Shown here piece by piece: positions 12,101 through 49,466 of a stretch of 53,863 bases of DNA. The notes below the pieces were generated by a model, which ran no database searches, was not told the origin of the DNA, and saw only the letters and a list, made by a program, of their open reading frames with translations. The DNA comes from a virus. Location: the IMG/VR virus record IMGVR_UViG_3300025910_000011, positions 1-53,863 of that record; one strand, 5' to 3'. Made by a program: the position numbers and the translations under genes. The number at the start of each line of letters is the position of its first letter. Position 1 is the first letter of the stretch.

Positions 12101-13551
12101 TGGCCGATTTCAGTGGTTATCTCGGACAACCCCTCTACGTTGGTCGCTCTGGTGAAGTGGTTACGTTCAGCGGCGCAGCCAACAGCGGCGGCTTCCTGTC
12201 CGGGGATATCATTCAGATCGTCGGGGCTGCTTTCACGTCCGGGACCGCGATTATCGAAATGGGTGACATCGCTCATTCGCTAACGCAACTGGCATCTGGC
12301 TCGGTATCGTCCGGGATGCTGAACGACGGTAGCGTTGTTAGCGGTTCCATCGCCAGCGGCTCAGTAGCATGGCCGCACCATGCGAGCGGCGCAGTGCGTT
12401 CTGGACACATTGCCAACGCTGCGGTCAACAGTGGTAACATCGGCAGCGGTCAGCTGGGCGGGATGCATTATTCGTCGGGTAGCGTCAACAGCGGCCACCT
12501 TGCCGACAATTCCGTGGTCAGCGGTTCCATCGGATCGGGGCAGTTGACTACTTTCCATATCGCTTCGGGCGGGTTGCTGTCGGGTGCTTTTGGTTCGGGT
12601 GTCATCGGCAATTTCCATCTCGCGTCCGGCGCCGTTACCAGCGGTCGCATCGCATCCGGAGCGGTTGGCCAGTTCCATATGGCGTCCGGGGCCGTTGGTT
12701 CTGGTGATCTTGGCAACAATTCCGTGGTCAGCGGTTCCATTGCATCGGGTCAGATTGCGCAGAACCATATCGCCAACGCAGGCGTGGTCAGCGGTAATTT
12801 GGCATCCGGGGTTGTCTCCCGCTTCCATCTTGCGTCGGGTGCGGTCAACAGCGGGCAGGTTGGTGACGCTGCGGTTGTTTCAGGTAGCTATGCCAGCGGG
12901 TCCATCAGTCAGTTCGCACTGGCCAGTGGTACGGTCAACAGTGGTCAGATCGGTTCTGGTGCGATTCAAGGCTACGGCGGGACGGGCGCCAGGAACATTG
13001 GCAGTGGCCAGGTCGGCAAGTTCGATCTGGCGTCTGGGGCGGTCGCATCCGGTCATCAGGCTAGCGGCTTGCCTGCGACCTATGCTCGCAACGTGTTCAT
13101 TGACAGCATGGTTGCGGGACAGGATATCTCCGGGGTTGTCGCCGTCTGTCTCAACAGTGGTGGCGGTAACATCGTTCCCGCGCAGCCAGCTAGTGGCCTA
13201 CGTCTGCCTGCTATTGGCGTCAATCTGGACAACGTATTGAGCGGGGCATCCTGCCGCTTCCTGCGGTATGGTTTGTTGCTAACGCCGAACAGCGGTACAG
13301 TCGCTTCGGGCTGGGCTGGCAACGGATTCAAGGGACAGTTGTTTGTGGGTAGTGGTGGCTTGCTTGTCAATCAATCTGGTTTTGGAGATGGTCCTTCGTC
13401 TGGTCCTGGTCCTGGTGGATGCGCATTTGGTTCTGGTCTGTCGGGAGCCTTGGTTCAACGGATTGGTTTGTCTATGAGCGGCGCTATATTGGTGCAGTTG
13501 GATATGCAAGTGACTTCTGGATTGTTCAGCGGTGTTTTGGGGGCTTACTAA
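9124..13551 (+). CDS. Giant Ser-Gly beta-solenoid fibre protein
   Basis: 1475 residues from GTG at 9124 after a G-rich leader; ATG at 9154 is an alternative start without a good binding site. Nearly the whole chain is a degenerate repeat in which SG recurs every 5-8 residues, with unit types such as HLASGAVRSGHIANAAV and SGGLGSGAIGSGQI. The spacing of small residues and Val/Ile suggests a beta-solenoid stalk. Two non-repeat domains interrupt it: one near 900-1040, and one at the C-terminus (about 1320-1475) nearly the same as the end of the 8171 protein, with LRLPAIGV, GSGGLLVNQSGF and GALVQRIG. Likely a long tail or head fibre. Synonymous codons are scrambled between repeats. Confidence 0.75.
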   Translation: MLYYLSPDQPMLVGALILSGQITSGYVGNGAIVSGSIASGQIAHPAFGSGGILSGDIASGQIGAYHIASGAVIAGAAGSGAIISGNIASGQIGTTHIGSGGLGSGALGSGQISWAHLSSGAARSGHIANAAVNSGNIASGSIYFHHIGSGGVNSGNIASGAVGHGHLADAGVQSGTIASGIIFPMHIVSGGLGSGAIGSGQIGPSHLASGLMGNSSGSLGSGLLANNSVVSGSIASGQVAWPHLSSGTVRSGHIANAAVTSGNVASGDLGTVHISSGGLGSGAIGSGQLAWVHMASGAIRSGNVANAAVNSGNVASGSIGSVHVASGGLGSGAIGSGQISQLHLASGTLVLTSGAAQSGYLGDGSVNSGNLSSGIVSRFHMASGAINSGHIGNAAVVSGSFASGSIGTVHITSGGLLSGAFGSGQIGQDHLGSGAIRSGAIASGQIGTTHIASGGVRSGNIASGQIGQTHLASGLLGNTSGSIGSGLLADASVVSGSIGSGQLTTFHVASGGLLSGAFGSGQIGQTHLASGAVRSGQLANASVVSGSVASGVLGAVHIGSGGLGSGAIGSGQIGSVHLSSGVIQSGHIGNGAVVSGSVGSGQLGTIHFGSGGLGSGAIGSGQISWAHLSSGTVRSGHLANASVTSGNVASGSLGTLHVASGGLFSGAVGSGQIGQAHLASGAVLSGHIGDAAVVAGSLASGSVGTTAIASGGLGSGSVASGTLISLNFVSGGTLPASGSVQRFQMGSGAINSGHVASGAVAGSLAGATRNIASGSIGPLELGSGSILSGAIASGQVGWRHLASGAAIGNMISGAITSGYQASGSLAWPAFADAGVLSGTVASGVIIGAHLASGAVLSGHVGSGAVLGANSSGAHVIASGTIGTNDIGAGGIQSGNVASGSLFGYHMVSGSTVTRARYTGPFFSGYSGSMWQVVTGERISGVRAVAISQSGTLIQAMASVSGRMPAIGVVLENVASGIEANVYTAGLHIFTSGLADFSGYLGQPLYVGRSGEVVTFSGAANSGGFLSGDIIQIVGAAFTSGTAIIEMGDIAHSLTQLASGSVSSGMLNDGSVVSGSIASGSVAWPHHASGAVRSGHIANAAVNSGNIGSGQLGGMHYSSGSVNSGHLADNSVVSGSIGSGQLTTFHIASGGLLSGAFGSGVIGNFHLASGAVTSGRIASGAVGQFHMASGAVGSGDLGNNSVVSGSIASGQIAQNHIANAGVVSGNLASGVVSRFHLASGAVNSGQVGDAAVVSGSYASGSISQFALASGTVNSGQIGSGAIQGYGGTGARNIGSGQVGKFDLASGAVASGHQASGLPATYARNVFIDSMVAGQDISGVVAVCLNSGGGNIVPAQPASGLRLPAIGVNLDNVLSGASCRFLRYGLLLTPNSGTVASGWAGNGFKGQLFVGSGGLLVNQSGFGDGPSSGPGPGGCAFGSGLSGALVQRIGLSMSGAILVQLDMQVTSGLFSGVLGAY
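9169..13080 (+). repeat. Protein-level tandem repeat array with scrambled codons
   Basis: The coding repeats of the 9124 gene. Equivalent units recur dozens of times, but Ser-Gly is written as AGCGGC, TCTGGT, TCCGGC, TCGGGC, TCAGGC and others, so long exact DNA repeats are scarce. This is not a CRISPR array: there are no fixed repeats with unique spacers. Confidence 0.75.
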
Positions 13552-13609
13552 TCAAGCGGTTTACTATAGAATGAAAGGGGGTATTCAAATTTTGCTGAAG
13601 GATACGGAC

Positions 13610-14377
13610 ATGACAACTTCGCAAGAACGGGATGCATGGGCCATCCAGAATCAAGGCAAAATTGTTTGTGCATGCGGTTGCGGGACGCCGGTTCGGTTGA
13701 TCGGTGCATACTGGTACAAACGACACAGGCCGTTTTATTTATTTGCGCACAGGGGGCGGGCGAAAAAGAGTATCCCTGTCATACAAGCATGGGTCGAGTT
13801 TCATCAAGATCGACATTTTTGTGCATGCGGTTGCGGACAGTTTGTTGTAGTGAACCGAAATCATCACTGGCGGGGAATCCCGCGGTTCATTGATGGACAT
13901 AAAGGCGTGCATACACCAGATGAATTTTGGAAGCGGGTTCAGAAAGAATCGGGTGACGGATGTTGGAATTGGATTCCGAAGCATCACAAGAGCGGTCGCG
14001 GATTCTTTCGATTGCCTGCTAATGGGCCAATGGTGTACGCGTATCGGTATTCCTACGAACTGCATCATGGCCCCATTCCCGAAGGGCTGGAAGTCTGTCA
14101 CCATTGCGATAATCCGCGTTGTGTTCGGCCAGATCATTTGTTTGCTGGCACCCATGCAGAAAATATGGCCGATCGCGCGCGAAAGGGTAACGCTGGAATG
14201 AAACTTTCGGCTGCGGTTGCTCGTGCCGTTGCTGAAGAAATGAAGGCTGGTGTTCCCACCAAAGACGTCGCCGCCAAGTATGGGATTTCGTTGAGTACGG
14301 CACTCAATATTAGCTACGGGCGAATTTGGGGAGCGATAACCGGGATTCCGCGGCGTCCGCGAGTTTCAAGAAAGTAG
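13610..14377 (+). CDS. HNH homing endonuclease with duplicated zinc knuckle
   Basis: 255 residues from ATG 13610 (AAGGATA upstream); the frame is open further 5', and ATG 13571 or GTG 13532 are weaker alternatives. Two N-terminal CACGCG knuckles, each with a following Trp/Arg/His-rich loop, precede the HNH core EVCHHCDNPRCVRPDHLF, then NMADRARKG. The C-terminal 55 residues form a helix-turn-helix (TKDVAAKYGISLSTALNI) for target recognition. This is the standard free-standing phage HNH family, also represented at 17419. It lies between the giant fibre gene and a small ORF whose GTG overlaps its stop (TAGTG), an arrangement like that of the 17419 cassette. Confidence 0.85.
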   Translation: MTTSQERDAWAIQNQGKIVCACGCGTPVRLIGAYWYKRHRPFYLFAHRGRAKKSIPVIQAWVEFHQDRHFCACGCGQFVVVNRNHHWRGIPRFIDGHKGVHTPDEFWKRVQKESGDGCWNWIPKHHKSGRGFFRLPANGPMVYAYRYSYELHHGPIPEGLEVCHHCDNPRCVRPDHLFAGTHAENMADRARKGNAGMKLSAAVARAVAEEMKAGVPTKDVAAKYGISLSTALNISYGRIWGAITGIPRRPRVSRK

Positions 14378-14484
14378 TGGTGGACAAATTGTATCGCAGT
14401 CGGGGTTCATGGACGGACAGCGAAGTGTACGATGAAGCGCGGGGGCACTACGTCCCGTTATGGGAAGCCGGAGAAGCCCAATGA
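14377..14484 (+). CDS. Short ORF overlapping HNH stop, possible gene remnant
   Basis: 35 residues from GTG 14377, overlapping the HNH stop codon, to TGA 14482-14484, where it overlaps the ATG of the HAD gene (ATGA). Sequence has W-T-D-S-E-V-Y-D and H-Y-V-P-L-W-E-A-G. The tight overlaps on both sides argue that the frame is translated. It may be a complete mini-protein or the 3' part of a gene whose start was replaced by the HNH insertion. No function assigned. Confidence 0.4.
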   Translation: MVDKLYRSRGSWTDSEVYDEARGHYVPLWEAGEAQ

Positions 14485-17062: not shown

Positions 17063-17350
17063 ATGGTCTCTGAGTTGTTGAAGACGATACTTCGCGACTG
17101 TGAAAAAGCACGTCTGGCGGCCAAAGCTGCTCAAGAACGCGAAGAGGAAGCGATCAGTCAGCGAAGTCTCGCATGGAACCATGTTCATGAGTTGGAAGGG
17201 CAGTTGTACACACGTGCTGTTGCGGAATGGGGCATGCCCTTCGAGCCGCGTGTTGTTCAGACGGAAGATGGGGCCTTTTTGCTTCGGCTGGATTACAACA
17301 CGGACACGGCAATACGCCCGCGGTTGGTGATGGTGGAAAACGATGGATGA
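17063..17350 (+). CDS. Hypothetical protein with N-terminal coiled coil
   Basis: 95 residues. Residues about 8-55 are helical and charged (KTILRDCEKARLAAKAAQEREEEA), then a small beta region (EPRVVQTEDGAFLLRLDYNTDT). Its stop (17348-17350) overlaps the ATG of the truncated ORF at 17343, showing that the latter was once the next cistron. Not recognised. Confidence 0.55.
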   Translation: MVSELLKTILRDCEKARLAAKAAQEREEEAISQRSLAWNHVHELEGQLYTRAVAEWGMPFEPRVVQTEDGAFLLRLDYNTDTAIRPRLVMVENDG

Positions 17351-17435
17351 TCTACCGCCGCCGATCCTGTACAAGAGCCAGATGTATCATCTGCTCTCCA
17401 CCGGACAAGGAATGAAAAATGGCAGCCAGACTTAA
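17343..17435 (+). pseudogene. Remnant of the original 5' end of the 18065 gene
   Basis: ATG 17343 opens a 30-residue frame whose residues 3-22 match residues 8-27 of the intact gene at 18065: 16 of 20 are identical, including PPP and YKSQMYH, ending in LSTGQ. At the identical residues, 9 of 16 codons differ, all synonymously. After STGQ the similarity stops and the HNH gene begins at 17419. This is best read as the pre-insertion gene start, left behind when the HNH cassette entered near STGQ. Confidence 0.75.
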
Positions 17436-18075
17436 ACAAAAGTGGTTGCGAACACGCAAGTTGAAAAATGGGGCGTATGCAGGATGGACATGCGAAGAAA
17501 AATTCCGATCACGGTACGTCGAATCCGCTGACGAATCGTGTTGGGAATGGTTGGGGAAGAAATTACCGAAAACAGGATACGGGTTGTTCGGTGTTAGCAT
17601 CGATTCTTATTTAGCGCATCGCGTTGCTTACACGCTTGCGTATGGCAACATTCCTCGCGGCATGTTGGTATGCCATCGATGCGACAACCCCAAGTGTGTC
17701 CGTCCGGATCATTTGTTTTTGGGAACTCAGACAGACAACATGCGGGATGCGAGAGAAAAGGGGCGTTCCAGAGGCGCCCCAGCAAAGTTCTCGCTAGATC
17801 AACGTCTGCGAATGTGCGAAGAACACAAATCAGGAATCCCTGTTTCGGATATCGCGATCCGTTACGGGATCACTGATTTTTACTTCTACAAGACTTATAG
17901 GAGCTTGACGGGGGCAGGGTGCCAAACAAATAAACTGAATCCAGATAAAGTCCGTCGCATATTTGTGATGCACGCATCCGGCACGTCGCGAAAAGTCATT
18001 GCAAAAGAAATGAACGTTACCCCTACATTGATCGGCATGGTGCTTCGCGGGAGGATATGGAAACATGTCAAATGA
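17419..18075 (+). CDS. HNH homing endonuclease inserted at a gene start
   Basis: 218 residues; AAGGA precedes the ATG. An N-terminal region with CWEW, then the HNH core LVCHRCDNPKCVRPDHLF and NMRDAREKGR, then two helix-turn-helix-like segments (VSDIAIRYGI; RKVIAKEMNVTPTLIGMVLRGRIW). Same family as the 13610 enzyme. Its stop (TGA 18073-18075) overlaps the ATG 18065 of the interrupted gene, so the cassette supplies both the nuclease and a replacement start for its target, while the original start survives upstream at 17343. Confidence 0.87.
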   Translation: MAARLKQKWLRTRKLKNGAYAGWTCEEKFRSRYVESADESCWEWLGKKLPKTGYGLFGVSIDSYLAHRVAYTLAYGNIPRGMLVCHRCDNPKCVRPDHLFLGTQTDNMRDAREKGRSRGAPAKFSLDQRLRMCEEHKSGIPVSDIAIRYGITDFYFYKTYRSLTGAGCQTNKLNPDKVRRIFVMHASGTSRKVIAKEMNVTPTLIGMVLRGRIWKHVK

Positions 18076-18667
18076 CAAAATCGAAGATCGTCCTCCTCCG
18101 CTTTTTTATAAAAGTCAGATGTATCATGCTCTTTCAACTGGACAGCTAGGAAATTCGGTGCCGATGTTTTTCGGACTGGAAGAATGGCTACACGAAAAGG
18201 ACGATTGCAACCACTACGGTTTATGGGGCGTTCGCAGCTTGACGCCGGGGGACCGCAAACGCTGCCGCCTGAACGTGCCAACGGGCGAAGTAGCTGAATA
18301 CTGGTGCAAATGGTTCGGTAGCGGCGGAGGCAACATTTCCCCGATGCTGGACCGCTGGGCGGTATTGCGGGGGCAGGTACTGGAGCCTAGACATCCGCCG
18401 TTCGGTTTGACACTGGACTACGTTCCGCCTGGCAAGGTAGACGAGGAAAGCCCCTGGCATGGCAGCTTCAACAAGTACGGCACGACGGCACGCGGTATCG
18501 TTGCCTGGGAGATACTGAGGTGTTATCTCTGGCCATCCGATCTGGAGGATTTGCGAGTGTTGCTGGAACGGTATCCGGGGCACGTCGTGGAATTCAGTGC
18601 ATGTGATCGGGCAGTAGGGTTGATTGCGAACAGGAACACGGTCTGGTGGGAGGTGCGTTTGTATTGA
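18065..18667 (+). CDS. Hypothetical protein with rebuilt, recoded N-terminus
   Basis: 200 residues; ATG lies inside the HNH 3' end. Residues 8-27 repeat the start of the remnant at 17343 with different synonymous codons and a changed N-terminal extension (MSNDKIE). The body is Trp/Gly/Pro-rich, with EEWLHEKDDCNHYGLWGVRSLTPGDRKRCRLNVPTG near the start; I recognise no family. The stop overlaps the next ATG (TGATG). Its start was evidently important enough to be reconstructed after insertion. Confidence 0.65.
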   Translation: MSNDKIEDRPPPLFYKSQMYHALSTGQLGNSVPMFFGLEEWLHEKDDCNHYGLWGVRSLTPGDRKRCRLNVPTGEVAEYWCKWFGSGGGNISPMLDRWAVLRGQVLEPRHPPFGLTLDYVPPGKVDEESPWHGSFNKYGTTARGIVAWEILRCYLWPSDLEDLRVLLERYPGHVVEFSACDRAVGLIANRNTVWWEVRLY

Positions 18668-28849: not shown

Positions 28850-29529
28850 TGCGCATCCTCATTACCTGTTGCGGACGCGCCGGGTCGCAATATGTGGCCC
28901 GGCTGCTGTCCGCTTGCGGGTTGTTCACGTCTCACGAACGGGTCTACCGTCCCGATCTGGAGCCGCAGTACCCGGAACGCTATCAGCTGGAGATTCAGGA
29001 TCGCTGGAACGGTCGGGACGCCTGGGGGGGCCGTCCCTGGGAAGCATGTGTATCATGGCTGGCAGCCCCGTTTCTGGGAACGTTACCGAAAGATGTGGTC
29101 GCGTTTCATCAGCTACGCGATCCGCTGAAGGTGGTCCGCTGCTGGGCCAGTCACGATCTGCTAGAGAATGCCAGGCGTGACGTCGGGGTGTTCATTCACG
29201 CGGTATTGCCGCAGTGCAATCACGGTAGCCGACTGGAGCGTGCGATTCAGTACGTGCTGGGCTGGACGAAGATGATTCAGCAGCATGATTTGTTGTGTCA
29301 TCGCGTTGAGGATTTCGACGCCGCACGACTGACTGCTGTCCTGCGTCGTGCGGAACTGTACGATTTCATGCCGCACGCAACCAACGCCTTCGGTGAGTTG
29401 GGTCAGGACGCCACCGTCGGCCATTGCCCCCTTGATATGCATATGCGGCTGACATGGGATGACATCGTCAAGGAATCGGGCGGGAAAGAGTTGCGCGAAC
29501 TGGCCCAGCATTATGGCTATGAAACATGA
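28849..29529 (+). CDS. Sulfotransferase-like P-loop protein
   Basis: 226 residues, TAATG coupling to the previous gene. N-terminal strand-loop-helix ILITCCGRAGSQYVARLL resembles the 5'-phosphosulfate binding loop of PAPS sulfotransferases, and VAFHQLRDPLKVVRCW resembles the R-D-P helix region that contacts the 3'-phosphate. Further on, LGWTKMIQQHDLLCHRVEDF fits the family's later strand. If right, it sulfates a glycan or protein, and would complement the glycosyl- and methyltransferases. It could instead be another P-loop transferase. Ends in an ATGA overlap with the metallopeptidase-like gene. Confidence 0.55.
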   Translation: MRILITCCGRAGSQYVARLLSACGLFTSHERVYRPDLEPQYPERYQLEIQDRWNGRDAWGGRPWEACVSWLAAPFLGTLPKDVVAFHQLRDPLKVVRCWASHDLLENARRDVGVFIHAVLPQCNHGSRLERAIQYVLGWTKMIQQHDLLCHRVEDFDAARLTAVLRRAELYDFMPHATNAFGELGQDATVGHCPLDMHMRLTWDDIVKESGGKELRELAQHYGYET

Positions 29530-30677
29530 GCAGCATTCCTCCTTCCTGCTTGACTAGCACGTCCAAACGCATATCACCGGCACGGGTGCCGCCTTCCCAT
29601 TTCTTCCATGCTCGACAGAAGGCGGCGCCCGTCGCAACTTTTGGAACGAAATCGCAAGGGCAGCCATGCAAACAGGGGGAGACGGCGGAACAGAGTGGGT
29701 GCATTCCAGCTAGTGGTGAAACAACTTCGACCAAGCTCGATTCAACAGATGTCGCAGAATTTGTTCGGGGGTTGAATGTAGGCACGAAAGTAGAAATCAA
29801 TCCATCTGGTAGGCGGATCAAACTTGTTGGGGACCTCGGTTCTGCTGAGGTACAACAAGGCGCCGGTGATGGCAAGTGGCGATTGCGGCTGCAAAACGGT
29901 TGGGTCGACATCGTACCGAGTCGAGATGAAGGACTGCGCCTAGCCGTAGCTCATGTATCATCCGCGCAGAAACCGTCCAAACCGTCTGATAAGGTGTCAA
30001 CGCCTGTTGAATCCCCCGCCGTTCCAACTGAACAATTAGTAGAATCGTCAGTTCCGTCAAAAGTTTCTGATGATCGTCAGAAATATGCGGAACTGATTGA
30101 TCGTCGCGTGAGCAAAGGTCTTACAAAGCGATCAAACTTGTCGTCAGAGCAACAAGCGAAAGTTAGGCAGACTCTTACTGGTGTACTGAATCGCATGCCA
30201 GATTCGGCGCTCAAGATGTTGCATCGCAACACTCTGAGCTACCGCTTCTATGAAGATGAGTTTGCGTTGACCAAATCGGCTATGGAGCACAGTCGCGGTT
30301 TTCGTGAGAGATTGGGGGATACCGCTGCTACAGAACGGGGGCAGTCCGGCGTGCTGATAGCCGGGTACTATGACACGGTTTCGACAGCGGTGCATTTGGT
30401 TGCTGAAGGGAATTGGCCTGAAGAAACCTACGCTCATGAATTGACTCACTGTTTGGACGGTCCGAATGGAGCGATCAGTCGCAGTCCTGAGTGGAAAGAA
30501 GCGTTTGGCGAAGAGATATTGGGTGGGGATTTAGGAGTGTATGCGGAAACTAACGATCAGGAAGGTCTTGCTGAATTCGGACGATTGGTCTATGCGGTCG
30601 ATTCGGTATTAGCTCGTGCGAAATACCCGAAATGTAGTGCAGTTTTCATCAAGCATGGACTAATGCCGGAGAAGTGA
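29526..30677 (+). CDS. Multidomain virion protein with HExxH metallopeptidase-like domain
   Basis: 383 residues. Residues 48-64 hold the Cys motif CKQGETAEQSGCIPASG, also present twice in the 30677 protein. Residues about 80-145 form a small beta domain. The C-terminal domain contains YAHELTHCLDG (HELTH at 304-308), the HExxH zinc signature, with ETNDQEGLAEFG (about 341-352) offering the downstream glutamate, as in gluzincin-type peptidases. Likely a zinc protease delivered with the virion or acting on host or capsid proteins. The stop overlaps the next ATG (TGATG). Confidence 0.65.
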   Translation: MSSIPPSCLTSTSKRISPARVPPSHFFHARQKAAPVATFGTKSQGQPCKQGETAEQSGCIPASGETTSTKLDSTDVAEFVRGLNVGTKVEINPSGRRIKLVGDLGSAEVQQGAGDGKWRLRLQNGWVDIVPSRDEGLRLAVAHVSSAQKPSKPSDKVSTPVESPAVPTEQLVESSVPSKVSDDRQKYAELIDRRVSKGLTKRSNLSSEQQAKVRQTLTGVLNRMPDSALKMLHRNTLSYRFYEDEFALTKSAMEHSRGFRERLGDTAATERGQSGVLIAGYYDTVSTAVHLVAEGNWPEETYAHELTHCLDGPNGAISRSPEWKEAFGEEILGGDLGVYAETNDQEGLAEFGRLVYAVDSVLARAKYPKCSAVFIKHGLMPEK

Positions 30678-33600
30678 TGTCTGATCTGCTTCAAATTTTT
30701 GCCGAGCCGTTGGCGACGGAAGATGGCCTGCTTGTTGATACTGTAGTTGCACGTAGCAGAAACCATCCAATCGTTCCGCCGAAGGTTCCTCCTTCCTCAT
30801 TAGTTCAGCACAAAGCCCTTGACAAGCCACACAAGTTCGGCTGTTTGATGCTGCTTCTGCCTCAAGACGTCACCAAGGAAATTACTGATTGGGCAATCGA
30901 GAACGTCCCTGATGTTCACCTGGGACCGGGCGGCCGTGAATTACGCAGCCATGTTACCTGCGCCTACGGATTCGAGGATGATGCGGGGCTGACGGATGAA
31001 TTAAACAAATTAATGAGTCGCAACGGCCCCGTTACCATCGCGCTGTCCGCCCTGTCGATTTTCGAGGGAGACAATCCGGACGGAACGCCGCTCAAGATCG
31101 ACGTTACATCACCGGAATTGATCGCATTGCATGAGGCCATCGCGGGGACGTTTCCGCTGCCAGGCAGCAAGTGGCCGGATTTCAAGCCGCACCTTACCCT
31201 GGCATTTCTTCAACCTGAAGTAGCTGCGTCCTACGTTGGTCTGCCTGCCCCGTTCATTGGCAAACAGGTAACGCTGACACAAGCAGAATACAGTGCGGCC
31301 GACGGCACAATGACGCCGATCCCGCTGACGTTTCTACCGATGTTTGGTCGCAAAGCTGCGCCGACACAACAGCATGCGGCCGGCGTGCCATTCAAAGGTC
31401 CGTCCGGCTCTTGGTTCATGGTCGATCCCAAATCCAATCGCGTTGTTCCCACAAAAGCACCCGGCAGTCAGCAACAACAGTCCGCCCCCAATGCTCTGCA
31501 ACAGGAAGAACCGCAGGAACCGTTGCCTGCGGAACAGGCGGACGCGACCGGCTACAACTATACCCCTGAAGAAGCGCAGGCCGAGAAGAAGTGGCAGGGG
31601 GAATACGCTGATTACGCACTGAAGAACAAGGGGCAGGAACCCGAACCGGGTTTGTTCAAGCGCTTTGTGACGGGCCTCATCAATCCGATCCTGTCCACGT
31701 TGGAACATCTGGCAGAATTGTCAGCCAAGGTTGGGGTCAAGGAAGGAGAAGAGGCAGACGCTCGCATTGATGGGATGCTGAATCAACTCAACCCCGCCGG
31801 TAAGGGCAAGGTCAATTTTTTCGCAACGCTCATCCTGACGCTGTTGTTTGGTAAGGACAAGGTAACTGCGTTGTTGCAGGAACAGGTTGCGAAGAAACCG
31901 AAGCCGCCAGAAACCACCCCGTCATTGCCCGAACAGGCTGACGCAGAAGAGAACGCACGCGAAGCGGCCAAGGAAGAGGAAACGCTGCCGCCCGAACAGA
32001 AGCCCGCAGCAGAAGCACAGGCGGCTGGCGGACAGCCCGAACGTCCCAAAAGCCCATTACGCGCTGACCAGCTGCCACCGGCTGCGGTAGGCGCTGCGCT
32101 GGCCGATTGGGTGCGGGATTATCGCGGGCAATGGCTGGAACTGGCCATGTCCCCACAAGACCTGGCCAATTGGGATGCGGCATTCGACGATCCCAACACA
32201 ACCGATTCCGTTCCCGAACCGCCGGGATGGGTAGACCGTCATCCCAACTGGCAGGAAGAGGAACAGAAAAAGCGCAGTCAACGTCCGGCTGACTGGTATC
32301 CATCAGCAGAAGAATATCTGGACAATTTGTCAGATGAGGAACGTCAGCGACTGAAAGATGAGTTCAATAAAGAAACGGGAGGCGCAACCAAACCCGGTTC
32401 GTTTGAGAAGTGGGTTCAGCGGCGTCGCAATGAACAAAAAGATGAGGCCAAACAGCAAAACACCAAGATAGAAACAAAGCCCACAACTAAGGTAGATCAG
32501 CCTGAACAGCGCCCCAACGCCGATCTTGATGAGATCATGCAGCAAAAGCCGTTGCAGCCGCCCAAGGTGCCACCAGGCAAGCTGCGACACAATCCCGATC
32601 TGGACGACGTTTTTGGCAAGGGGCTGAAGGCGCTGTCCTGGCTGAACAGCAACAACGGCGGGGCATTGGTCGAACCGCCAGCGCAGAAGCGAACGACGAT
32701 CAAGCTGCTGCGAGCGAAATACGGCCGCAAATCCGTTGGTACTTGCAAGCCCGGCGAACGCTCTGATCTAACTGGCTGCACTCCTGCGTCTGGCCATCCG
32801 ACCGGAAAACCCGCCCTGCAACCTCCCGCAGTTCCGCCCATCCCCGGCATTCCTGCACGATTGAAAAACGTCGTCAGCAAGGGCTATGCAAAAGCCAAGC
32901 AGATCGTCGCAGCGTATACGCAGGCACTGGACGAAGCCACTGACGTGCTGGTCATTCGCGAAGCCAAGCAGATCAGCGCCAAACTGAAGAATCTTACGCA
33001 GGCGTTCGCTACCAAGGTAACAGATCGTTACGGTCGCGTAGGCGGTGTTTGCGTGCTGGCATCGGGGCAGATGCTGGGCTGGGGAACGTTTGCGGCTGGT
33101 AGCGCAATGGGCGTTCCGCTCTGGCTACCCGGTTCGAGCATCTGGGGCAGTTTGCCCGGTGCGGCGGTAGCGGAAGTGCTACTGCAAACGACACGCATGG
33201 TTCGCGGTGGCAAGGCGTTGACGCCGGCCGATGATACACGCAAACTGACACCGGAACTGGCCGAACGTTTGTGGAATGAGTTCATCGCTGATCTGATGCC
33301 AGTCTATTTCGCGGAATTGAAACGGGCTGGGGTGCTGCCCAACACTGGCGAAAAGCAGATGACGTATCAGACGAAGGATCGCAACGTTCCATGCAAACAG
33401 GGCGAAACTTCCGAACAGACAGGCTGCATTCCAGCGTCAGGTGATACCAAGAAGCCCCCTGCAAAAACGAATAAAGTAGGGGGGAAAGCACCACCAAAGA
33501 AGGTCGCGAAGCCCGCAGCCGTCCGGCTGGAAATGACCGCGGCCCGGCGAGAAGGCGAAGGCAAGGACGCGAAAATCGTGTTGGCAGATGGACAACCTGC

Positions 33601-34579
33601 TCCAGCACATATTACACCCGCGATGGTCCCGCCCGGCTGGGTTGATGTACAGGTCAGTACGGACCCGAACGCTGATGTACTGGTTACAGCGCGGGACGCC
33701 AAGGGCAACACGAAAACGGTCTACAGCGACAAATGGGATGAGGGGGCCGCTGCTAGAAAGTTTGCCCGCATCCACGATTGCATGCAACAAGGTCCGGCCA
33801 TCGCCGCACAGATTCAACGGGACCGGGCTGATCCGAAGAAAATGGATTCCGCCGATTGCGCCTGGCTGATGAATGTGCAGGGGACGCGGCCCGGTAGTGA
33901 AGCGGACAATAAGGGTGTCGGGCATCTGTTCGGGCAGCCGCTAAGTACAGAAAACGTCGTGCTGGGTGAACCGGACAAACAGGGCGTACCGTCGGTAACA
34001 TTGAAGGTCGGGAATGAGGAAATCCCGATTCGCGACAAGAAGGCCCGCGCCGAAATTGCCCGTCGTGTCAAGCAGGGTGATTCATTGGAGGATACCGGCT
34101 ACTGGCTGAAATCGCATGGGGCGACGACGCTGGAAGGTCGCAACGTGGTAGTAACGGGTGCCGGCGTACTGCTGCGATTCATGGGCAAAGAGTCCGTTTG
34201 GCACGAGCACTACGTTCGCGATCCAAAACTAGCTGAGATGCTGAAAGAACGCAAGAACGCTGCGGGGAACCGTGGTAAGTTGTTCCCTCGTACCAACGAT
34301 GCCAAGGTGAATGCTTACGTCTCTTCACTAGACGGCGGCAAGTTTACGCCGAAGGATTTGCGAACGCGCCGTGGTACTGAAATGGCATTGAAAGAAATTG
34401 CCCGCCGAGACGCACCGCAAACTGAGAAGGATTACAAGAAGACTGTCATGGAGATCGCCGGCATAGTGTCTGGTGTGTTGGGCAATGAGCCAGCTGTTTG
34501 CCTATCTACTTATATCAGTCCGGTAGTGTTCAGCGGCTGGCGCGCCGGGTTGGTCGCGGCGAAGAAAACAAGCGTCTGA
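30677..34579 (+). CDS. Polyprotein: 2H phosphoesterase plus type IB topoisomerase
   Basis: 1300 residues, ATG 30677 coupled to the previous stop. Domain 1 (about 45-220): two H-x-T motifs, HVTCAYG (92-94) and HLTLAFL (172-174), the 2H phosphoesterase signature. Middle: charged linkers, PPKVPP motifs, a piece of capsid N-arm (KALSWLN...NGGALV, from Lys651), Cys motifs at 690 and 906. C-terminal (about 970-1300): type IB topoisomerase with AHITPAMVPPGW, TARDAKGNTK, ATTLEGRNV, GK, FTPKDLRTRRGT and the catalytic Tyr1279 in TYISP. The last 22 codons are a recoded copy; the original end survives at 35414. Probably packaged and ejected with DNA. Confidence 0.75.
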   Translation: MSDLLQIFAEPLATEDGLLVDTVVARSRNHPIVPPKVPPSSLVQHKALDKPHKFGCLMLLLPQDVTKEITDWAIENVPDVHLGPGGRELRSHVTCAYGFEDDAGLTDELNKLMSRNGPVTIALSALSIFEGDNPDGTPLKIDVTSPELIALHEAIAGTFPLPGSKWPDFKPHLTLAFLQPEVAASYVGLPAPFIGKQVTLTQAEYSAADGTMTPIPLTFLPMFGRKAAPTQQHAAGVPFKGPSGSWFMVDPKSNRVVPTKAPGSQQQQSAPNALQQEEPQEPLPAEQADATGYNYTPEEAQAEKKWQGEYADYALKNKGQEPEPGLFKRFVTGLINPILSTLEHLAELSAKVGVKEGEEADARIDGMLNQLNPAGKGKVNFFATLILTLLFGKDKVTALLQEQVAKKPKPPETTPSLPEQADAEENAREAAKEEETLPPEQKPAAEAQAAGGQPERPKSPLRADQLPPAAVGAALADWVRDYRGQWLELAMSPQDLANWDAAFDDPNTTDSVPEPPGWVDRHPNWQEEEQKKRSQRPADWYPSAEEYLDNLSDEERQRLKDEFNKETGGATKPGSFEKWVQRRRNEQKDEAKQQNTKIETKPTTKVDQPEQRPNADLDEIMQQKPLQPPKVPPGKLRHNPDLDDVFGKGLKALSWLNSNNGGALVEPPAQKRTTIKLLRAKYGRKSVGTCKPGERSDLTGCTPASGHPTGKPALQPPAVPPIPGIPARLKNVVSKGYAKAKQIVAAYTQALDEATDVLVIREAKQISAKLKNLTQAFATKVTDRYGRVGGVCVLASGQMLGWGTFAAGSAMGVPLWLPGSSIWGSLPGAAVAEVLLQTTRMVRGGKALTPADDTRKLTPELAERLWNEFIADLMPVYFAELKRAGVLPNTGEKQMTYQTKDRNVPCKQGETSEQTGCIPASGDTKKPPAKTNKVGGKAPPKKVAKPAAVRLEMTAARREGEGKDAKIVLADGQPAPAHITPAMVPPGWVDVQVSTDPNADVLVTARDAKGNTKTVYSDKWDEGAAARKFARIHDCMQQGPAIAAQIQRDRADPKKMDSADCAWLMNVQGTRPGSEADNKGVGHLFGQPLSTENVVLGEPDKQGVPSVTLKVGNEEIPIRDKKARAEIARRVKQGDSLEDTGYWLKSHGATTLEGRNVVVTGAGVLLRFMGKESVWHEHYVRDPKLAEMLKERKNAAGNRGKLFPRTNDAKVNAYVSSLDGGKFTPKDLRTRRGTEMALKEIARRDAPQTEKDYKKTVMEIAGIVSGVLGNEPAVCLSTYISPVVFSGWRAGLVAAKKTSV

Positions 34580-35333
34580 AAGGCCAGCCCCGTTTGATCC
34601 TGTGGTGCAATGTGCTGTAGGAAAGGCCGGTATGGGCGCACCATTCGAGCAACGTCTTGGTTTCGCCGTTGATTGTGACGGCGGTCTGTTTCGTGAGCAC
34701 TCTTGCTGGCGTGGTCAATGCTTCTGCGACAGTCCAGCCTTTGGAGAGTCTGCCCCTAATGACGCCGGACGGAAGCCCGACGATTTCAGCCCATTCTGCA
34801 AGACATTTGGTCTTTCCATTATGTTCAATCAGGTGGTTGCGTTTCTGATTTCTTGCTTGTTGGGTATCGGTAGCCCAGCGACAGTTGCCCGGTTCGTAGT
34901 TACCGTCGCTGTCGATGCGGTCGATGGAATGACGAATGGATGGACGCGGCCCCATGTCAGCCAGAAACGCTGTGAAAGAGTCCAGCCACCTTTGGCAAAC
35001 TTTGATGCCCCGTTGACCGTAGCCGGGACATTCAGGGTCGAGGCATCGTCGTTTCATGGATGTCCAACTGCTGTGGGTAGAACGGTAGTGCCAACGGGGG
35101 CCTCGTCGTTTGATGCCCCTTCTTTTTCCAAAGCAACGAATGCAGCCGGTGCTCTTGCCACTGGTCAAGTTGCCGCCATAGACGACGCCTCGGCCACCGC
35201 ATCGGCACCGGCAGTTCCAATAGGAAAGCGTCTTCCTTTTGCCCGCGTAGCTTTCGACTGTCCATTCCCCAAAGGACTTCCCAATGAGGTTTTGGAACAG
35301 TGCGTGAACAGGGATAGGGTAAGAGGCGTTCAT
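34530..35333 (-). CDS. Homing endonuclease inserted at the topoisomerase active site
   Basis: 267 residues from ATG 35333 (GGAGG upstream on the minus strand). Free-standing phage endonuclease of the SIDRIDSDGNYEPGNCRWA family: an N-terminal domain with C-R-C-R-C-G and SGKSTGCIRC, a core with WTSMKRRCLDPECPGYGQRGIKVCQRWLDSF and the SIDRIDSDGNY motif, then two helix-turn-helix-like repeats (KTKCLAEWAEIVGLPSGVIRGRLSKGW; KTLLEWCAHTGLSYSTLHHRIKRGW). It is opposite to its neighbours, and its 3' end (34530-34579) is antisense to the recoded end of the topoisomerase gene. Confidence 0.85.
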   Translation of the reverse strand: MNASYPIPVHALFQNLIGKSFGEWTVESYAGKRKTLSYWNCRCRCGGRGVVYGGNLTSGKSTGCIRCFGKRRGIKRRGPRWHYRSTHSSWTSMKRRCLDPECPGYGQRGIKVCQRWLDSFTAFLADMGPRPSIRHSIDRIDSDGNYEPGNCRWATDTQQARNQKRNHLIEHNGKTKCLAEWAEIVGLPSGVIRGRLSKGWTVAEALTTPARVLTKQTAVTINGETKTLLEWCAHTGLSYSTLHHRIKRGWPFRRLFSSPRPTRRASR

Positions 35334-35413
35334 GGTCAATTCCTCCAAAGGGCAGAACCGGCGTTGTTCGCTTGCTCTGCATAGTTTACTGAATTGGGGA
35401 ACGGATGCCAATA

Positions 35414-35473
35414 TACATCAGCCCGGTGGTTTGGTCTGGTTGGCGTGCCCGCTTGCCGAAGGAAGGTGTTTGA
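35414..35473 (+). pseudogene. Remnant of the original 3' end of the topoisomerase gene
   Basis: Reads YISPVVWSGWRARLPKEGV, stop at 35471-35473. It matches the end of the 30677 protein from the catalytic Tyr (YISPVVFSGWRAGL...). Of 12 identical residues, 7 use different synonymous codons (for example TAT/TAC, AGT/AGC, GTA/GTG, AGC/TCT, CGC/CGT). The TGA overlaps ATG 35473 of the next gene, the normal coupling of this operon, so this copy occupies the ancestral position. Confidence 0.8.
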
Positions 35474-38436
35474 TGCCCCGTTTGCCTGGAATGGAAGATG
35501 CTGATGTGTATTTCGGCGACGCGGAAAAACCGCTACCGGATTGGCGCGCCCATGTCGAAGAAGATACCGCAGACGATGATACACTATCGGACGCTGAACA
35601 CGTAGCACTGGTGGCCATGTTGGGGTTTGATCCCAATGAAGGGGAAGACGGCGATACCGAACAGCCTGCGACGCAACCGCCCAAAGTTCCGCCCAGCCCA
35701 TTTAATGACAAGTCTCTGCCAGCGCAAAATGCCAAGCGATGGGTAACGATGGGCGGCCAGGCTTGTGCCGAAGGTGAAGAGGGCGAGCACTGTGGCGGTA
35801 CGCATGTTGAACTGGACGGAGAAGGACGTATTCGTAAAGGCCCCGCTAGCACCATCGGCAAGAAGCCCGATGAACTGCCGAAGCGGAATAGCCTCAAGCC
35901 GCCTTCCATTGATTCGCTGCTGACCAATCGGCCGCGCTGGTCCCCGAATAAGCCCGCTGCCCCCAAGATCGAAAAGCCGAAAGAGGAGAAGCCCAAGGAA
36001 GAACCAGCGGCCCAAACGTCCCCAACCGAAGAACCCAAAGCACCCGAACCGCAGCCGGAAGAAACGGTACTGGACGAAACACCAAAGCAGGAAGCGTTGC
36101 CCGAACAGCCTGCTACAGAAAAGCCGGAGGACAGCAATGGCGAGCAACGAGGACCAGCAAGCGGACCAGCTGCTGAATCGGCTGGAGAAACAGGCGAATC
36201 AGTGGAGACAACGCCTGAGCGACCCGTTGATTCAGCAGCAGATACGGGACGGCCGGATGGTAGTAAGCCCACTGGTGAAGGAACTGCTCGACCTGTTCCC
36301 GCAAAAGTCGAAGTAGTCAACAAGCGGCTGGATCGCTATGAGAAGCTGTTCCGTTCCCGCGGCAATCAGAAGGTCGCCGATTGGATGGGACAGCTGCGTA
36401 ACCATATTGGCGCAGTTGGTATTGATACTGCGTTGGAATCGTTGGGCGAAGAAGTTCAGGGGGAAGGGGAAGAGGTCCAATACGGCGGTCACGATCTGGA
36501 CGGTAATGGGGACGCCAATTTCATCGAAAAATATCTGGATCGTGCGGGCATCAGCTTGATTCATGGTACGGCCCCCAGCGGTTCCAAGCGGGCCATTTCC
36601 ACCGTCTCGCAATCGACTGATGATGAAGGCTTGCACGAACGCGGCGATGAACGAGACTACTTCCCGCAACTGCAAACGCTGCGGGATAAACTGGACGAAA
36701 CACAGCATCTGCCGGGGCTGGAGAACAGTGAAGACCTTGGCAAACTGATGGGCCAGGAGTTTGGTACGGCTGTTCCTGAATTCACGCCCGATGTTATCAA
36801 GAAACTTGACGCTACCTATGGGGAAGACAAATGGATTGTCAAATCCTACGGCGACGAGGCATACGCCGGCTATGGCATCTTCTTCCCGCAGCGTATCCGC
36901 CAAATCCAGCAGGATGCAAAAAATTCCATGTGGGCCAGTGGGGGTGAATTGGCGAAGCATGGTTTTGAGCATGTCCGTGAGAAGTTGGGGGACGATGGTT
37001 TTAGAGCTGCATTGGCTGGAGAAGGCAAAACGGTAGACGATGCTTTGTTTCGCGTCGGCGACAACGTCGGCGGTCAAGAGCAGGACGTTTACTACGACGA
37101 GAAGAACGACCGTTACAACAAGATCGCCAAATCCGCCAGCGGCCAGAACGCCACACAGCAGGAATTCTTGGAACGCCACGCCGCGCTCAACGCCCTCTGG
37201 CCCGAGTTAGGCTACAAGTTCGAGGGGCAGACGCGAGACGGGAAACCGATCATCTCCATGAACAGCATCGGCGGCGAAACGCCCACGGCACAAGAGGTAG
37301 ACGACTGGCTCTGGGACAACGACTGGGAGCCGGCCGATAAGGGCTGGGAGCGCGGCGGCTACGAAGCTGCCGAAGGGCCGGATGCCTGGCGAAACCGCCG
37401 CACGGGCATTACGATCGGGGACACCCATCAGGGCAATTGGAAGAAGGTCGATAACGAGTTGGTGCCGATCGACGTGGACGTAAGCAACATCAACGTCAAC
37501 AAGCTACCCAAGAGGCTCACGCATGATCGTGTCGTAGGCGTGAAGCACAAGGACGGTGAAGTGTTTCGCTTCGGGAGTCGTAAGTACGAAAAGCTCTACG
37601 GAGACGCCCGAGCCGCTGCCGATTCGGCATGGCGAGCAGCCCCCAATGAGGCCGCAACGGCTGTATCCAAAGGCCGTTTCATGGCCTCCCCGGCGTTTCC
37701 TGTGGTAGGCATCACCAACGAGGAGCGGGCGCAGGGCATTACGTTCAAGAAGGGACAGGAAGGCCGCGTCCATATCGTCACCCGCAATGGCAAAGCAGAG
37801 ATTGTCCCGCATTCGACGTGGCTGAAGATGGAACCGATGCCAGTAGTGTTTGAGGATGATGACACAAAAGCGATGGCGCAGGCTGCGGTAGACGCGATCA
37901 ACGCGCTGCCTGAATCAGAACGGAACGGGCAGTTGTACGCTCCGGATATCGTCAAGACGACGGATGGCTACCGTGTCGTTGAGGCGAACCCAGCGAATCA
38001 AGCCGGAGCGAGCGGCTACCTCCAAGATAATCCCATAATCATAGATTCATATGTTAGTTCGTTGACTGGTCGGGAACCGGCACACGTGTCCTTCATTCGC
38101 AAGCTGCTCAGTTCGCGAAAGAAGGAAGGACACAAATCGTTCCCAATGCCACCGCTTCTGAAGTCAATGCAGGAAGGGCTTCTTATGAACAAGCACGTTA
38201 AGGCGGCTGAAGAAGCCCGTCGGCTAGAAGCCAAGTTGAAGGCGCAACGGAAGCCTGCTGTGTATACTCTGCATTGGCAGTATCACGATAATAAGCCCAT
38301 CAATGGTTGGAAATTCTCAACGCTGAGTGGTGCCGAAGCGGCGGCCGATACCTATTTGTCGGAAAATCACGAACGGGGTGTCGGTGTTTATATCGAAGGC
38401 ACAGACGGTAGCAGCAGTTTCTACGGAAGGGATTGA
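35473..38436 (+). CDS. Polyvalent virion protein with kinase-like and ATP-grasp-like domains
   Basis: 987 residues from ATG 35473 (AAGGAAGG, TGATG coupling); the frame upstream of this is a shadow. N-terminal acidic region, PPKVPPS and a KSL site (80-82), a Cys-rich GEEGEHCGGTHVELDGEGRIRKGP segment (about 100-125), then a Pro/Glu-rich linker to about 280. About 454: WIVKSYGDEAYAGYGIF. About 535-680: a domain resembling the kinase found in polyvalent phage proteins, with DTHQGNW (about 650) and LVPIDVDV as catalytic loop and metal motif. About 740-850: ATP-grasp-like, with GRVHIV and YAPDIV...VVEANPANQAG. Likely virion-borne enzymes acting on host targets at infection. Confidence 0.6.
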   Translation: MPRLPGMEDADVYFGDAEKPLPDWRAHVEEDTADDDTLSDAEHVALVAMLGFDPNEGEDGDTEQPATQPPKVPPSPFNDKSLPAQNAKRWVTMGGQACAEGEEGEHCGGTHVELDGEGRIRKGPASTIGKKPDELPKRNSLKPPSIDSLLTNRPRWSPNKPAAPKIEKPKEEKPKEEPAAQTSPTEEPKAPEPQPEETVLDETPKQEALPEQPATEKPEDSNGEQRGPASGPAAESAGETGESVETTPERPVDSAADTGRPDGSKPTGEGTARPVPAKVEVVNKRLDRYEKLFRSRGNQKVADWMGQLRNHIGAVGIDTALESLGEEVQGEGEEVQYGGHDLDGNGDANFIEKYLDRAGISLIHGTAPSGSKRAISTVSQSTDDEGLHERGDERDYFPQLQTLRDKLDETQHLPGLENSEDLGKLMGQEFGTAVPEFTPDVIKKLDATYGEDKWIVKSYGDEAYAGYGIFFPQRIRQIQQDAKNSMWASGGELAKHGFEHVREKLGDDGFRAALAGEGKTVDDALFRVGDNVGGQEQDVYYDEKNDRYNKIAKSASGQNATQQEFLERHAALNALWPELGYKFEGQTRDGKPIISMNSIGGETPTAQEVDDWLWDNDWEPADKGWERGGYEAAEGPDAWRNRRTGITIGDTHQGNWKKVDNELVPIDVDVSNINVNKLPKRLTHDRVVGVKHKDGEVFRFGSRKYEKLYGDARAAADSAWRAAPNEAATAVSKGRFMASPAFPVVGITNEERAQGITFKKGQEGRVHIVTRNGKAEIVPHSTWLKMEPMPVVFEDDDTKAMAQAAVDAINALPESERNGQLYAPDIVKTTDGYRVVEANPANQAGASGYLQDNPIIIDSYVSSLTGREPAHVSFIRKLLSSRKKEGHKSFPMPPLLKSMQEGLLMNKHVKAAEEARRLEAKLKAQRKPAVYTLHWQYHDNKPINGWKFSTLSGAEAAADTYLSENHERGVGVYIEGTDGSSSFYGRD

Positions 38437-47506: not shown

Positions 47507-48211
47507 GTGGGCAGGGCATACCAAGTCAATGGCGAGACAATGGTATACGCGAAGGGCGGATCGCACATGAGCGGTCGTGCCATTGGCCAGCTCACCGAAT
47601 TGGGATTGTGCGAAGGTCCGGTCCGCGTCAGGCCCCGTTTCTTCCATCACGACATCCATACTGACGATTTCGGTCCCAACGCAGCCGCGGAAGTGCAGGC
47701 GAATCTCTCGGAAGTGACGATTGAGATGACGCTGTTGCACTATGACAAAGAAGCGCTGGACGCTTGCTGGGCAGAAAGTCTAGGCGGCTGCGGTGGTTCT
47801 CCTGCGCAGCAAGCCTTGCACGCAGGCGGCTATCGCGCTGGTATCGCTGCGGGTGCGGGGCAGTTGCTGGGTAACGGCCTGCCCATGTTTTCCAGCGGCT
47901 GCCACTATATCAGCCTCAGCCTGTCCAGTCAGCAGCTGGCGTATCCGTGGCGCTTTCGCACGTGCCATCTGGCAGAGCCGCCTGTGGATATCCCGCTGGG
48001 TACAGAGAAAAGCGCCGTCAAGTTGAACTGGCGGGCCATCCCTTACGCCCCATTGTTGGTCAGCGGGGCAACTACCAGTTATTTCGCCCTACCCAGCAAT
48101 AGCGGGCTGTTCCTGTCCGGTTCAGCAGTGACCATCAATGGACAGGCGTATGCACTTGCCGAACAGCTGTCGTCTGGCAAGGTGCTGTTTGACCATACCC
48201 TTGACACATGA
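47507..48211 (+). CDS. Tail tube-like protein, paralog 1
   Basis: 234 residues from GTG 47507. Shares with the next protein: an early Y-Q-[VI]-[NS]-G-E-[TS]-M-V-Y, a HYDKEALDACWAESLGG motif, and a late VDIPLGTEKSAVKLNWRAIPY. This one carries an extra insert near 185-210 (LVSGATTSYFALPSNSG). Placed where tail tube or terminator genes normally lie. Two related tube-like proteins could build tail tube and tail terminator, or a mixed tube. Confidence 0.65.
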   Translation: MGRAYQVNGETMVYAKGGSHMSGRAIGQLTELGLCEGPVRVRPRFFHHDIHTDDFGPNAAAEVQANLSEVTIEMTLLHYDKEALDACWAESLGGCGGSPAQQALHAGGYRAGIAAGAGQLLGNGLPMFSSGCHYISLSLSSQQLAYPWRFRTCHLAEPPVDIPLGTEKSAVKLNWRAIPYAPLLVSGATTSYFALPSNSGLFLSGSAVTINGQAYALAEQLSSGKVLFDHTLDT

Positions 48212-48223
48212 GGACGCTGTCCA

Positions 48224-48793
48224 ATGAGCAGGAACTATCAGATTTCCGGCGAGAGCATGGTCTATGTCAAGGGCGATCCCAATTCTGGTATCGCTTCCTT
48301 GAGTGAGCTGGGATTGCCCTATGACGCGATTCAGGTAACGGTGAACCCGTTGCACAAGGACGTCAAACTGGATGCCTGGGGTGGCGAAACGGGACCGCCG
48401 AATGATATTCAGGTGATGCTGGCGGACGTGACGTTGGTCATCAACCTGATCCATTACGATCCTAACATCCTCGACGCTTGCATGCGTGAGAGTATGGGAG
48501 GAACCGCTACCATCGGCACCGTTACCCGCGCCGGCCGGCTTCTGGGCGGCGGTGTAGCGCGTCTGACGGTAGGGAACCATTTCATCGGTTTGAACATCGC
48601 TGCCCCGCAATCGGGCAAACCCTACCGTTTCTACACCGCGTACCTGACGACGAATCCTGTCATGATTCCGCTGGGTACGGAGAAGAGCATCGTCAAGACG
48701 AGCTGGCGAGCGATTCCATATTCCACCGATCCTTGGGGAAGTGGCTCTGGTGCTTCGGGCGCTATCATATGGGATAATGTGCTCGACACTTAA
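48224..48793 (+). CDS. Tail tube-like protein, paralog 2
   Basis: 189 residues. GESMVYVKGD, ELGLPYDAIQVTVNPLHKDVKLDAWGG, LIHYDPNILDACMRESMGG, and VMIPLGTEKSIVKTSWRAIPY, all matching the 47507 protein at lower similarity; both end in LDT. The 48793 stop is followed by a 9-bp hairpin and then an endonuclease gene, a plausible later insertion between tube and chaperone genes. Confidence 0.7.
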   Translation: MSRNYQISGESMVYVKGDPNSGIASLSELGLPYDAIQVTVNPLHKDVKLDAWGGETGPPNDIQVMLADVTLVINLIHYDPNILDACMRESMGGTATIGTVTRAGRLLGGGVARLTVGNHFIGLNIAAPQSGKPYRFYTAYLTTNPVMIPLGTEKSIVKTSWRAIPYSTDPWGSGSGASGAIIWDNVLDT

Positions 48794-48839: not shown

Positions 48840-48878
48840 GATCCTGAACAAGCACCGACTGGTTAGGAGTCAGTGACA

Positions 48879-49466
48879 ATGTCTACCATTCATGTTACGC
48901 ACAATCGCCCCGATAGTAAAGAATCATGGAACGCGGTTCCTGGCTGCGTCGGTGAGTACGAAATTTCGTCCAGAGGAAGGGTGAAGAGTCTCAGTCGCGT
49001 CATTCACAGAAAAGACGGCAGCTCATGGAAAACCAAGGAACGCATACTCGTGCCTACGCTAGCGGGGCGTGGGTATCTTTGCATAGCAATACGGGGGACG
49101 CACTGCCGGCGTCGTTGGTATCTTCATCGTCTTGTCCTGGAAGCGTTCGTTGGTCCCTGCCCGCCTGGAATGGAATGCCGCCATCTGAACGGGAAGCGGA
49201 ATGACAATCGACTAGAAAATCTAGCATGGGGAACACCCAAGGAAAACGGCCTGGACAGGATTCGCCACGGGACAGTATCGCACGATCACGGGATGCCCGG
49301 TGAAAGGAATCACAAGGCGAAATTGACAGAAGACAACGTCAGAGAAATCCGCAAGGTGTACGCGGCGGGTGGTATGTCTCAAAGGGAAATCGGTTTGTTG
49401 TACAGCGTTGGGCAAGATACCATCAGCAGTATAGTGCGCCGCGGGACTTGGTCTCATATTGAATAG
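48879..49466 (+). CDS. NUMOD4-HNH homing endonuclease
   Basis: 195 residues from ATG 48879 (AGGAG at 48866-48870; GTG 48873 is too close). N-terminal NUMOD4 motif: ESWNAVPGCVGEYEISSRGRVKSL. HNH core: YLHRLVLEAFVGPCPPGMECRHLNGKRNDNRLENLAWGTPKEN. C-terminal helix-turn-helix: KLTEDNVREIRKVYAAGGMSQREIGLLYSVGQDTISSIVRRGTW. The order is standard for free-standing phage homing enzymes. I found no duplicated gene end around it. Confidence 0.87.
   Translation: MSTIHVTHNRPDSKESWNAVPGCVGEYEISSRGRVKSLSRVIHRKDGSSWKTKERILVPTLAGRGYLCIAIRGTHCRRRWYLHRLVLEAFVGPCPPGMECRHLNGKRNDNRLENLAWGTPKENGLDRIRHGTVSHDHGMPGERNHKAKLTEDNVREIRKVYAAGGMSQREIGLLYSVGQDTISSIVRRGTWSHIE

Follow-up and report, generated by a model that had tools for sequence, protein, structure and literature searches.

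The window analysed here, i.e. the whole stretch of DNA, is a 53.9-kb virus record. In it, an antisense homing endonuclease gene (HEG) lies between two copies of the segment coding for the end of a topoisomerase IB (TopIB). The following features were assigned at the locus.

30674–34579, plus strand: gene of a polyvalent phage protein, 1301 aa (Pfam PF13563, E 9.5e-10; PF01028, E 1.5e-9; alignment to phage TopIBs)
34511–34579, plus strand: putative functional, recoded 3′ end with the catalytic tyrosine, YISPVVFSGWRAGLVAAKKTSV and stop (in frame with the TopIB body; synonymous saturation versus the downstream copy)
34530–35333, minus strand: free-standing HEG of phrog_3377/374 type, about 267 aa (PHROG E 1.2e-64)
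35341–35346, minus strand: ribosome-binding site GGAGGA ahead of the HEG start codon (from the sequence)
35383–35411, minus strand: promoter-like TTGGCA-17-TAAACT for the HEG, at the remnant border (weak; 1 found versus 0.5 expected in shuffles)
35414–35473, plus strand: putative remnant of the original TopIB 3′ end, YISPVVWSGWRARLPKEGV and stop (stop overlaps the next start; same stop-start junction in uninterrupted relatives)
35473–38436, plus strand: next gene, 987 aa, N-terminus MPRLPGMEDADVYFGDAEKPLPDWR (directly follows TopIB in relatives; weak Kinase-PolyVal match)

The topoisomerase gene, its two tails and the endonuclease

The product of the 30674–34579 gene combines a 2′-5′ RNA ligase-like N-terminus (PF13563) with a C-terminal TopIB catalytic domain encoded at about 33626–34579 (PF01028). 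In alignments, the R-K-R-(H/N)-Y residues of TopIB enzymes are conserved in the window protein as R, K, R, N and Y, which satisfies the membership test for this family, and the catalytic tyrosine corresponds to the Y of the upstream tail. Judged by its sequence, the product is a topoisomerase IB; its enzyme activity is inferred only. Between its RPGS and DTG motifs, the TopIB domain has about 62 extra residues (window positions 33905–34090) that are missing from phage relatives L095–L099. A cysteine motif, CK(Q/P)GE(T/R)(A/S)..(S/T)GC(I/T)PASG, is common to the adjoining genes 29526–30677 and 30674–34579, and occurs twice in the latter.

The HEG is a stand-alone endonuclease ORF outside an intron or intein, as indicated by its complete reading frame, its ribosome-binding site, its matches to PHROG HNH/homing families and the lack of any Rfam match in a scan of positions 33500–36500. 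Its relatives comprise about 600 candidates in viral contigs, and 801 phage records. The nuclease fold is unsettled: PHROG families named HNH match the window HEG strongly and point to an HNH enzyme, without support from Pfam or PDB. Pfam HNH models matched none of 35 relatives, and no PDB fold was found for the window HEG at an E of 0.001 or better by structure search (model pLDDT 87.5), or by profile. The coding end of the HEG overlaps the upstream tail antisense by 50 bases (34530–34579), and the HEG and the recoded tail therefore occupy the same DNA.

As described in an earlier note on this window, the tail at 34511 recurs at 35414–35473, 834 bases further on, and this was correct base for base. 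The downstream copy was also confirmed to be coupled to the next gene: its TGA stop codon (35471–35473) overlaps the ATG at 35473. Comparison of 14 aligned codons in the two tails revealed 12 identical residues and 2 replacements. Seven of the 12 identical residues are specified by different synonymous codons (the same count as in the earlier note), and five by identical ones; first, second and third codon positions match in 12, 12 and 5 of 14 codons. Since independent codon choice would be expected to leave 4.4 of 12 codons identical, the tails are saturated for synonymous change. Such saturation, together with the conserved protein, implies that each tail was a working gene end before the two were joined. 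Simple duplication was rejected as the origin of the tails, as the codon is kept at only 5 of the 12 identical residues, approximately as with independent choice. The ungapped score of the peptide pair is 63. In a survey of 80 HEG loci (see below), two loci scored at least 60, while ca. 0.08 were predicted by pairing left and right flanks of different loci.

Uninterrupted relatives and other invasions of the same site

TopIB relatives were obtained only through alignments, which yielded a first set and then about 50 phage TopIBs at roughly 43–53% identity; tails were compared at 41 TopIB loci from viral contigs with a readable stop. At 34 of the 41, the gene runs uninterrupted into the same next gene, so that HEG-free cognate alleles exist, as required of a free-standing phage HEG. 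In these 34 loci, only a few residues separate the tyrosine motif from the TopIB stop, which overlaps or directly adjoins the start of a small acidic gene (..DAHFG..PLPDWR..DDPDPDDE); the window gene at 35473 is a relative of this gene. Because they share this stop-start junction, the downstream copy in the window occupies the place of the original end. Most simply, the upstream copy would have come with the HEG, and the downstream copy would stand at the ancestral junction. The earlier note had read the locus in the same way (a HEG inserted with its own recoded 3′ end, the old end left as a downstream remnant), and the shared junctions support that reading, as do three further loci considered below.

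The note had also suggested a search for uninterrupted relatives. Such relatives were found, with the same junction; the nucleotide distance of the tails favours neither copy. Similarity to 37 relatives averaged 18.9 of 33 nucleotides for the upstream tail versus 18.8 for the downstream copy, which does not separate old from new. At the protein level, the corresponding values were 7.1 (upstream, with F) and 6.2 (downstream, with W) of 11 residues. The upstream tail is thus somewhat nearer to the relatives, which counts mildly against the downstream copy being the original; where most relatives have F, we take the W to have arisen by drift once the remnant was no longer translated. Neither direct protein search, nor search with the next gene, nor a degenerate DNA pattern for the tail revealed an uninterrupted copy of the window's own topoisomerase. 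A contig scan for an uninterrupted copy revealed none, and capsid relatives (67% identity) had no TopIB match. As the best TopIB identity is about 53%, the original copy in the window is judged by the gene junction and by other loci only.

At three other TopIB loci, this site is likewise occupied by an insertion, preceded by a recoded tail and followed by a remnant. In L151, the insertion is a degenerate antisense relative of the window HEG, with YISPELFSDW in the tail and YINPELFSSW in the remnant. In L152 and L157, it is an intact antisense GIY-YIG HEG (PF01541, NUMOD3), unrelated to the window HEG. The tail of this pair is YISPVVFSSWREAIAA and stop, and the remnant is YISS(T/I)VFSEWRIA; the uninterrupted genes of L158 and L160 end in YISPVVFAEWRIAV and stop. 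From the remnant into the next gene, L152 and L157 are 90–95% identical over 171 bases to L158 and L160. L157 matches L158 at 90–97% until shortly before the tyrosine codon, and at 59% in the final segment of the comparison, within the tail, which marks a sharp cassette border. The TopIB genes of L152 and L157 are 100% identical over the last 60 columns of their alignment and 68–72% identical over the preceding 120; they thus represent one cassette in two TopIB backgrounds. As far as the alignments indicate, the recoded end and the HEG have moved jointly in this pair, which provides our best evidence for joint movement. The GIY-YIG ORF overlaps its own tail antisense by 52 bases, and we infer from such overlaps, here and in the window, that the tail and the nuclease gene would be hard to part by recombination.

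Two additional observations were made at TopIB loci. The first bases of the remnant in L152 (4244–4266) and in L157 are nearer to the cassette's own tail than to L158, as if the right-hand exchange had taken place inside the repeat. In L095 (745–3450), a MuF-like head protein is fused to TopIB and has an apparent intein-like interruption that contains an antisense ORF (1594–2367).

Duplicated gene ends at other endonuclease loci

The survey covered 80 HEG loci (the window HEG and its relatives, i.e. one HEG family) and used a border-restricted, ungapped peptide comparison; gapped and long-flank versions were swamped by low-complexity matches and were discarded. Peptide duplication across the HEG borders with a score of at least 40 was observed at six of the 80 loci. 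About 0.3 would be expected by chance, a value interpolated between 0.42 at a score of 38 and 0.17 at 42 (identity at least 50%, flanks of different loci paired). Besides the window, the cases concern the 3′ ends of a DnaB helicase gene (L061) and an unnamed gene (L004), and the 5′ ends of genes for an AAA ATPase (L043), a MuF head protein (L045) and a baseplate protein (L069); at the last three loci the copies were checked by hand to be gene starts. Ten HEG loci from cultured phages yielded two clear duplications, one at the 5′ end of a macro-domain gene in Xanthomonas phage LucasX (score 97) and one at the 3′ end of a head gene in Acinetobacter phage Ab69 (score 52), and the remaining eight were negative or low-complexity. 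Over 11 cases (171 codons), codon positions 1, 2 and 3 match at 77, 83 and 33%, respectively. Because the differences concentrate at third codon positions, we infer that the copies evolved as separate functional genes before they were joined.

A second case was found in the window itself, at a HEG of another family:

17343–17408, plus strand: putative remnant of the original 5′ end, MDDLPPPILYKSQMYHLLSTGQ (start coupled to the upstream stop)
17419–18075, plus strand: HNH_3 HEG, of a family different from that of 34530–35333 (Pfam HNH_3 E 2.8e-15; PHROG)
18065–18667, plus strand: gene with a putative functional, recoded 5′ end, IEDRPPPLFYKSQMYHALSTGQ at 18080–18145, overlapping the HEG end (score 94)

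Sixteen of 22 residues are identical between the two copies, nine of them through other codons. The arrangement mirrors that of the TopIB locus, with the remnant 5′ end before the HEG and the recoded 5′ end after it. The flank test on 16 relatives of this HNH_3 HEG revealed no clear case other than the one in the window. Elsewhere in the window, weak flank similarity (13351–13401 and 14376–14426; SGGLLVNQSGFGDGPSS and SGGQIVSQSGFMDGQRS, score 53) surrounds a HEG at 13532–14377; it may be due merely to the SG-rich repeats that this gene contains. At 47507–48793, just before another HNH gene (48873–49466), there is a pair of neighbouring genes that look paralogous (YQ(V/I)(N/S)GE(T/S)MVY(A/V)KG..).

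Among cultured Acinetobacter phages, AP22, Ab69 and their relatives (Obolenskvirus) carry a HEG after a head morphogenesis gene that ends in ..CKCRK(Y/C)LIIDIPETI and stop. Past the HEG, AP22 has RCRKKLIIEIPDKPYQNN and stop, followed by the DNA that is found after the uninterrupted gene of QH4, which itself ends in ..LIIDVPDNTYQNN and stop (..DNTYQNN and stop). The 3′ end of the head gene, its last 190 or so bases, is hypervariable (L123, L128–L132), in HEG-free phages too, with identities of about 40–80%, versus about 80–100% in the body of the gene. As HEG-free phages vary as much, the divergence is not tied to HEG carriage alone; the hypervariability fits repeated end replacement, and it fits other causes as well.

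A proposed selfish cassette and its significance

We consider it very probable that the locus carries a selfish cassette, in which a free-standing HEG is combined with a terminus of its target gene that is functional but spelled differently. The layout, the ancestral position of the remnant, the joint movement of tail and HEG in one pair and the recurrence of the pattern are demonstrated at the level of sequence; cleavage, homing and immunity are inferred. In the arrangement that can be read from the genomes, the reading frame of the target gene is continued by the recoded end; the HEG comes next, sharing bases with that end, and on its far side, still at the ancestral junction, lies the original end that was displaced. 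During mixed infection, the HEG would cut the intact end of a cassette-free phage, and repair would copy in the tail and the HEG, with the gene body serving as the left homology arm and the remnant and next gene as the right one. The target gene would never be lost, since the cassette supplies its end, and the carrier would be immune, since its only functional end would be too diverged for recognition. Most likely, the recoded end was originally acquired from a distant homologue and did not arise by rewriting at the locus itself. Against the cassette, data on cleavage and homing are lacking, the duplicated segment is not known to contain the target site of the HEG, and the flank test detected the pattern at only six of 80 HEG loci.

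It is possible, though we think it rather unlikely, that immunity was never selected and that the HEG acquired the end of a distant gene by illegitimate recombination, with divergence a mere by-product. A distant donor fits the synonymously saturated tails, and ends are hypervariable even in HEG-free Acinetobacter phages, but the repeated independent cases at exact gene ends, and the presence of two unrelated HEG families at one TopIB site, suggest that a diverged end is needed. This alternative and the immunity reading differ only in what is selected, and both could hold. The two adjacent copies of a short segment that flank the inserted gene could also have arisen by ordinary insertion with a target-site duplication, followed by drift. 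Drift in a dead copy would, however, strike all codon positions, whereas the observed differences are mainly at the third, and the upstream end of L157 departs from its HEG-free relatives at a sharp border; such an origin is highly improbable. Introns frequently carry HEGs, and the downstream segment encodes a tail of the same protein, as it would if the HEG lay inside an intron and the tail were joined by splicing. Yet with the upstream copy the protein is already complete up to its stop codon, and there is no Rfam match at positions 33500–36500, so that splicing is scarcely credible; a group I intron or an intein around the HEG was rejected on these grounds.

The cassette of HEG and recoded end has its nearest precedent in fungal mitochondrial mobile ORFs (mORFs) with C-terminal duplication, known from atp6 of Allomyces macrogynus and from atp6, atp9, cox2 and nad3 of Glomus (Beaudet et al. 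2013, PMC3630166), and also from cob and atp6 of Endoconidiophora (PMC6279837). In both, a HEG in the 3′ coding end brings a diverged functional end, in frame, and the native end is found downstream and resembles that of uninterrupted relatives. The window has the in-frame diverged end and the downstream native end; the match of the native end to uninterrupted relatives holds at the DNA level for L152 and L157 versus L158 and L160, and for AP22 versus QH4, and for the window by the junction only. The fungal elements differ in that they are organellar LAGLIDADG or GIY-YIG genes, several of them in phase with the host gene, while among the phage cases there are also HEGs of the phrog_3377 and HNH_3 families, HEGs that overlap the tail antisense, and 5′ ends that are recoded. 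As the window HEG is a phrog_3377-type phage gene and not a LAGLIDADG or GIY-YIG gene of a mitochondrial genome, the system works like the mORF type but is not a member of it.

Among phages, the nearest case is that of T4 MobA and the 50-nt bypass insert in gene 60. There, a free-standing HEG split a phage topoisomerase gene, and a DNA change that came with it is considered to shield the carrier against self-cleavage (PMC5009743, PMC2988022). The T4 enzyme is, however, a type II topoisomerase that stays split, and protection is due to a non-coding insert skipped by the ribosome, whereas in the window the gene is kept whole by the recoded end. The Seg and Mob enzymes of T-even intronless homing are likewise free-standing HEGs beside a host gene, expected to cut HEG-free alleles, but they cut at a distance of hundreds to thousands of bases from the HEG, and gene-end replacement with a remnant was not seen for them in the accessible part of PMC2988022. 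Engineered home-and-rescue gene drives with a recoded target, as far as PMC7968924 was available, also let the cutter travel with a rescue copy; they are man-made, use Cas9 and operate in flies, whereas the phage system is natural. Recoded ends with remnants go unmentioned in the available sections of a survey of phage HEGs near essential genes (PMC10448857) and of a Skunavirus study (PMC12724721). No phage description of a HEG with a recoded gene end was found in the open-access literature; a previous account elsewhere remains possible.

HEGs gain access to coding sequence by way of introns and inteins. The free-standing ones are commonly regarded as confined to intergenic targets, sparing host genes (e.g. 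PMC13405050). A recoded end would be a third route into coding sequence, taken at several unrelated phage genes by unrelated nucleases. It explains orphan gene-end fragments next to phage HEGs, points annotators to the gene that each HEG targets and to a candidate for its target site, and is a possible source of patchwork divergence in phage gene ends. We lean towards the view that recoded ends are a general, convergent strategy of free-standing phage HEGs (phrog_3377, HNH_3 and GIY-YIG; at 3′ and 5′ ends), and that repeated rounds of replacement drive the hypervariability of phage gene ends. Such cassettes would be natural counterparts of engineered home-and-rescue drives, invading coding sequence.
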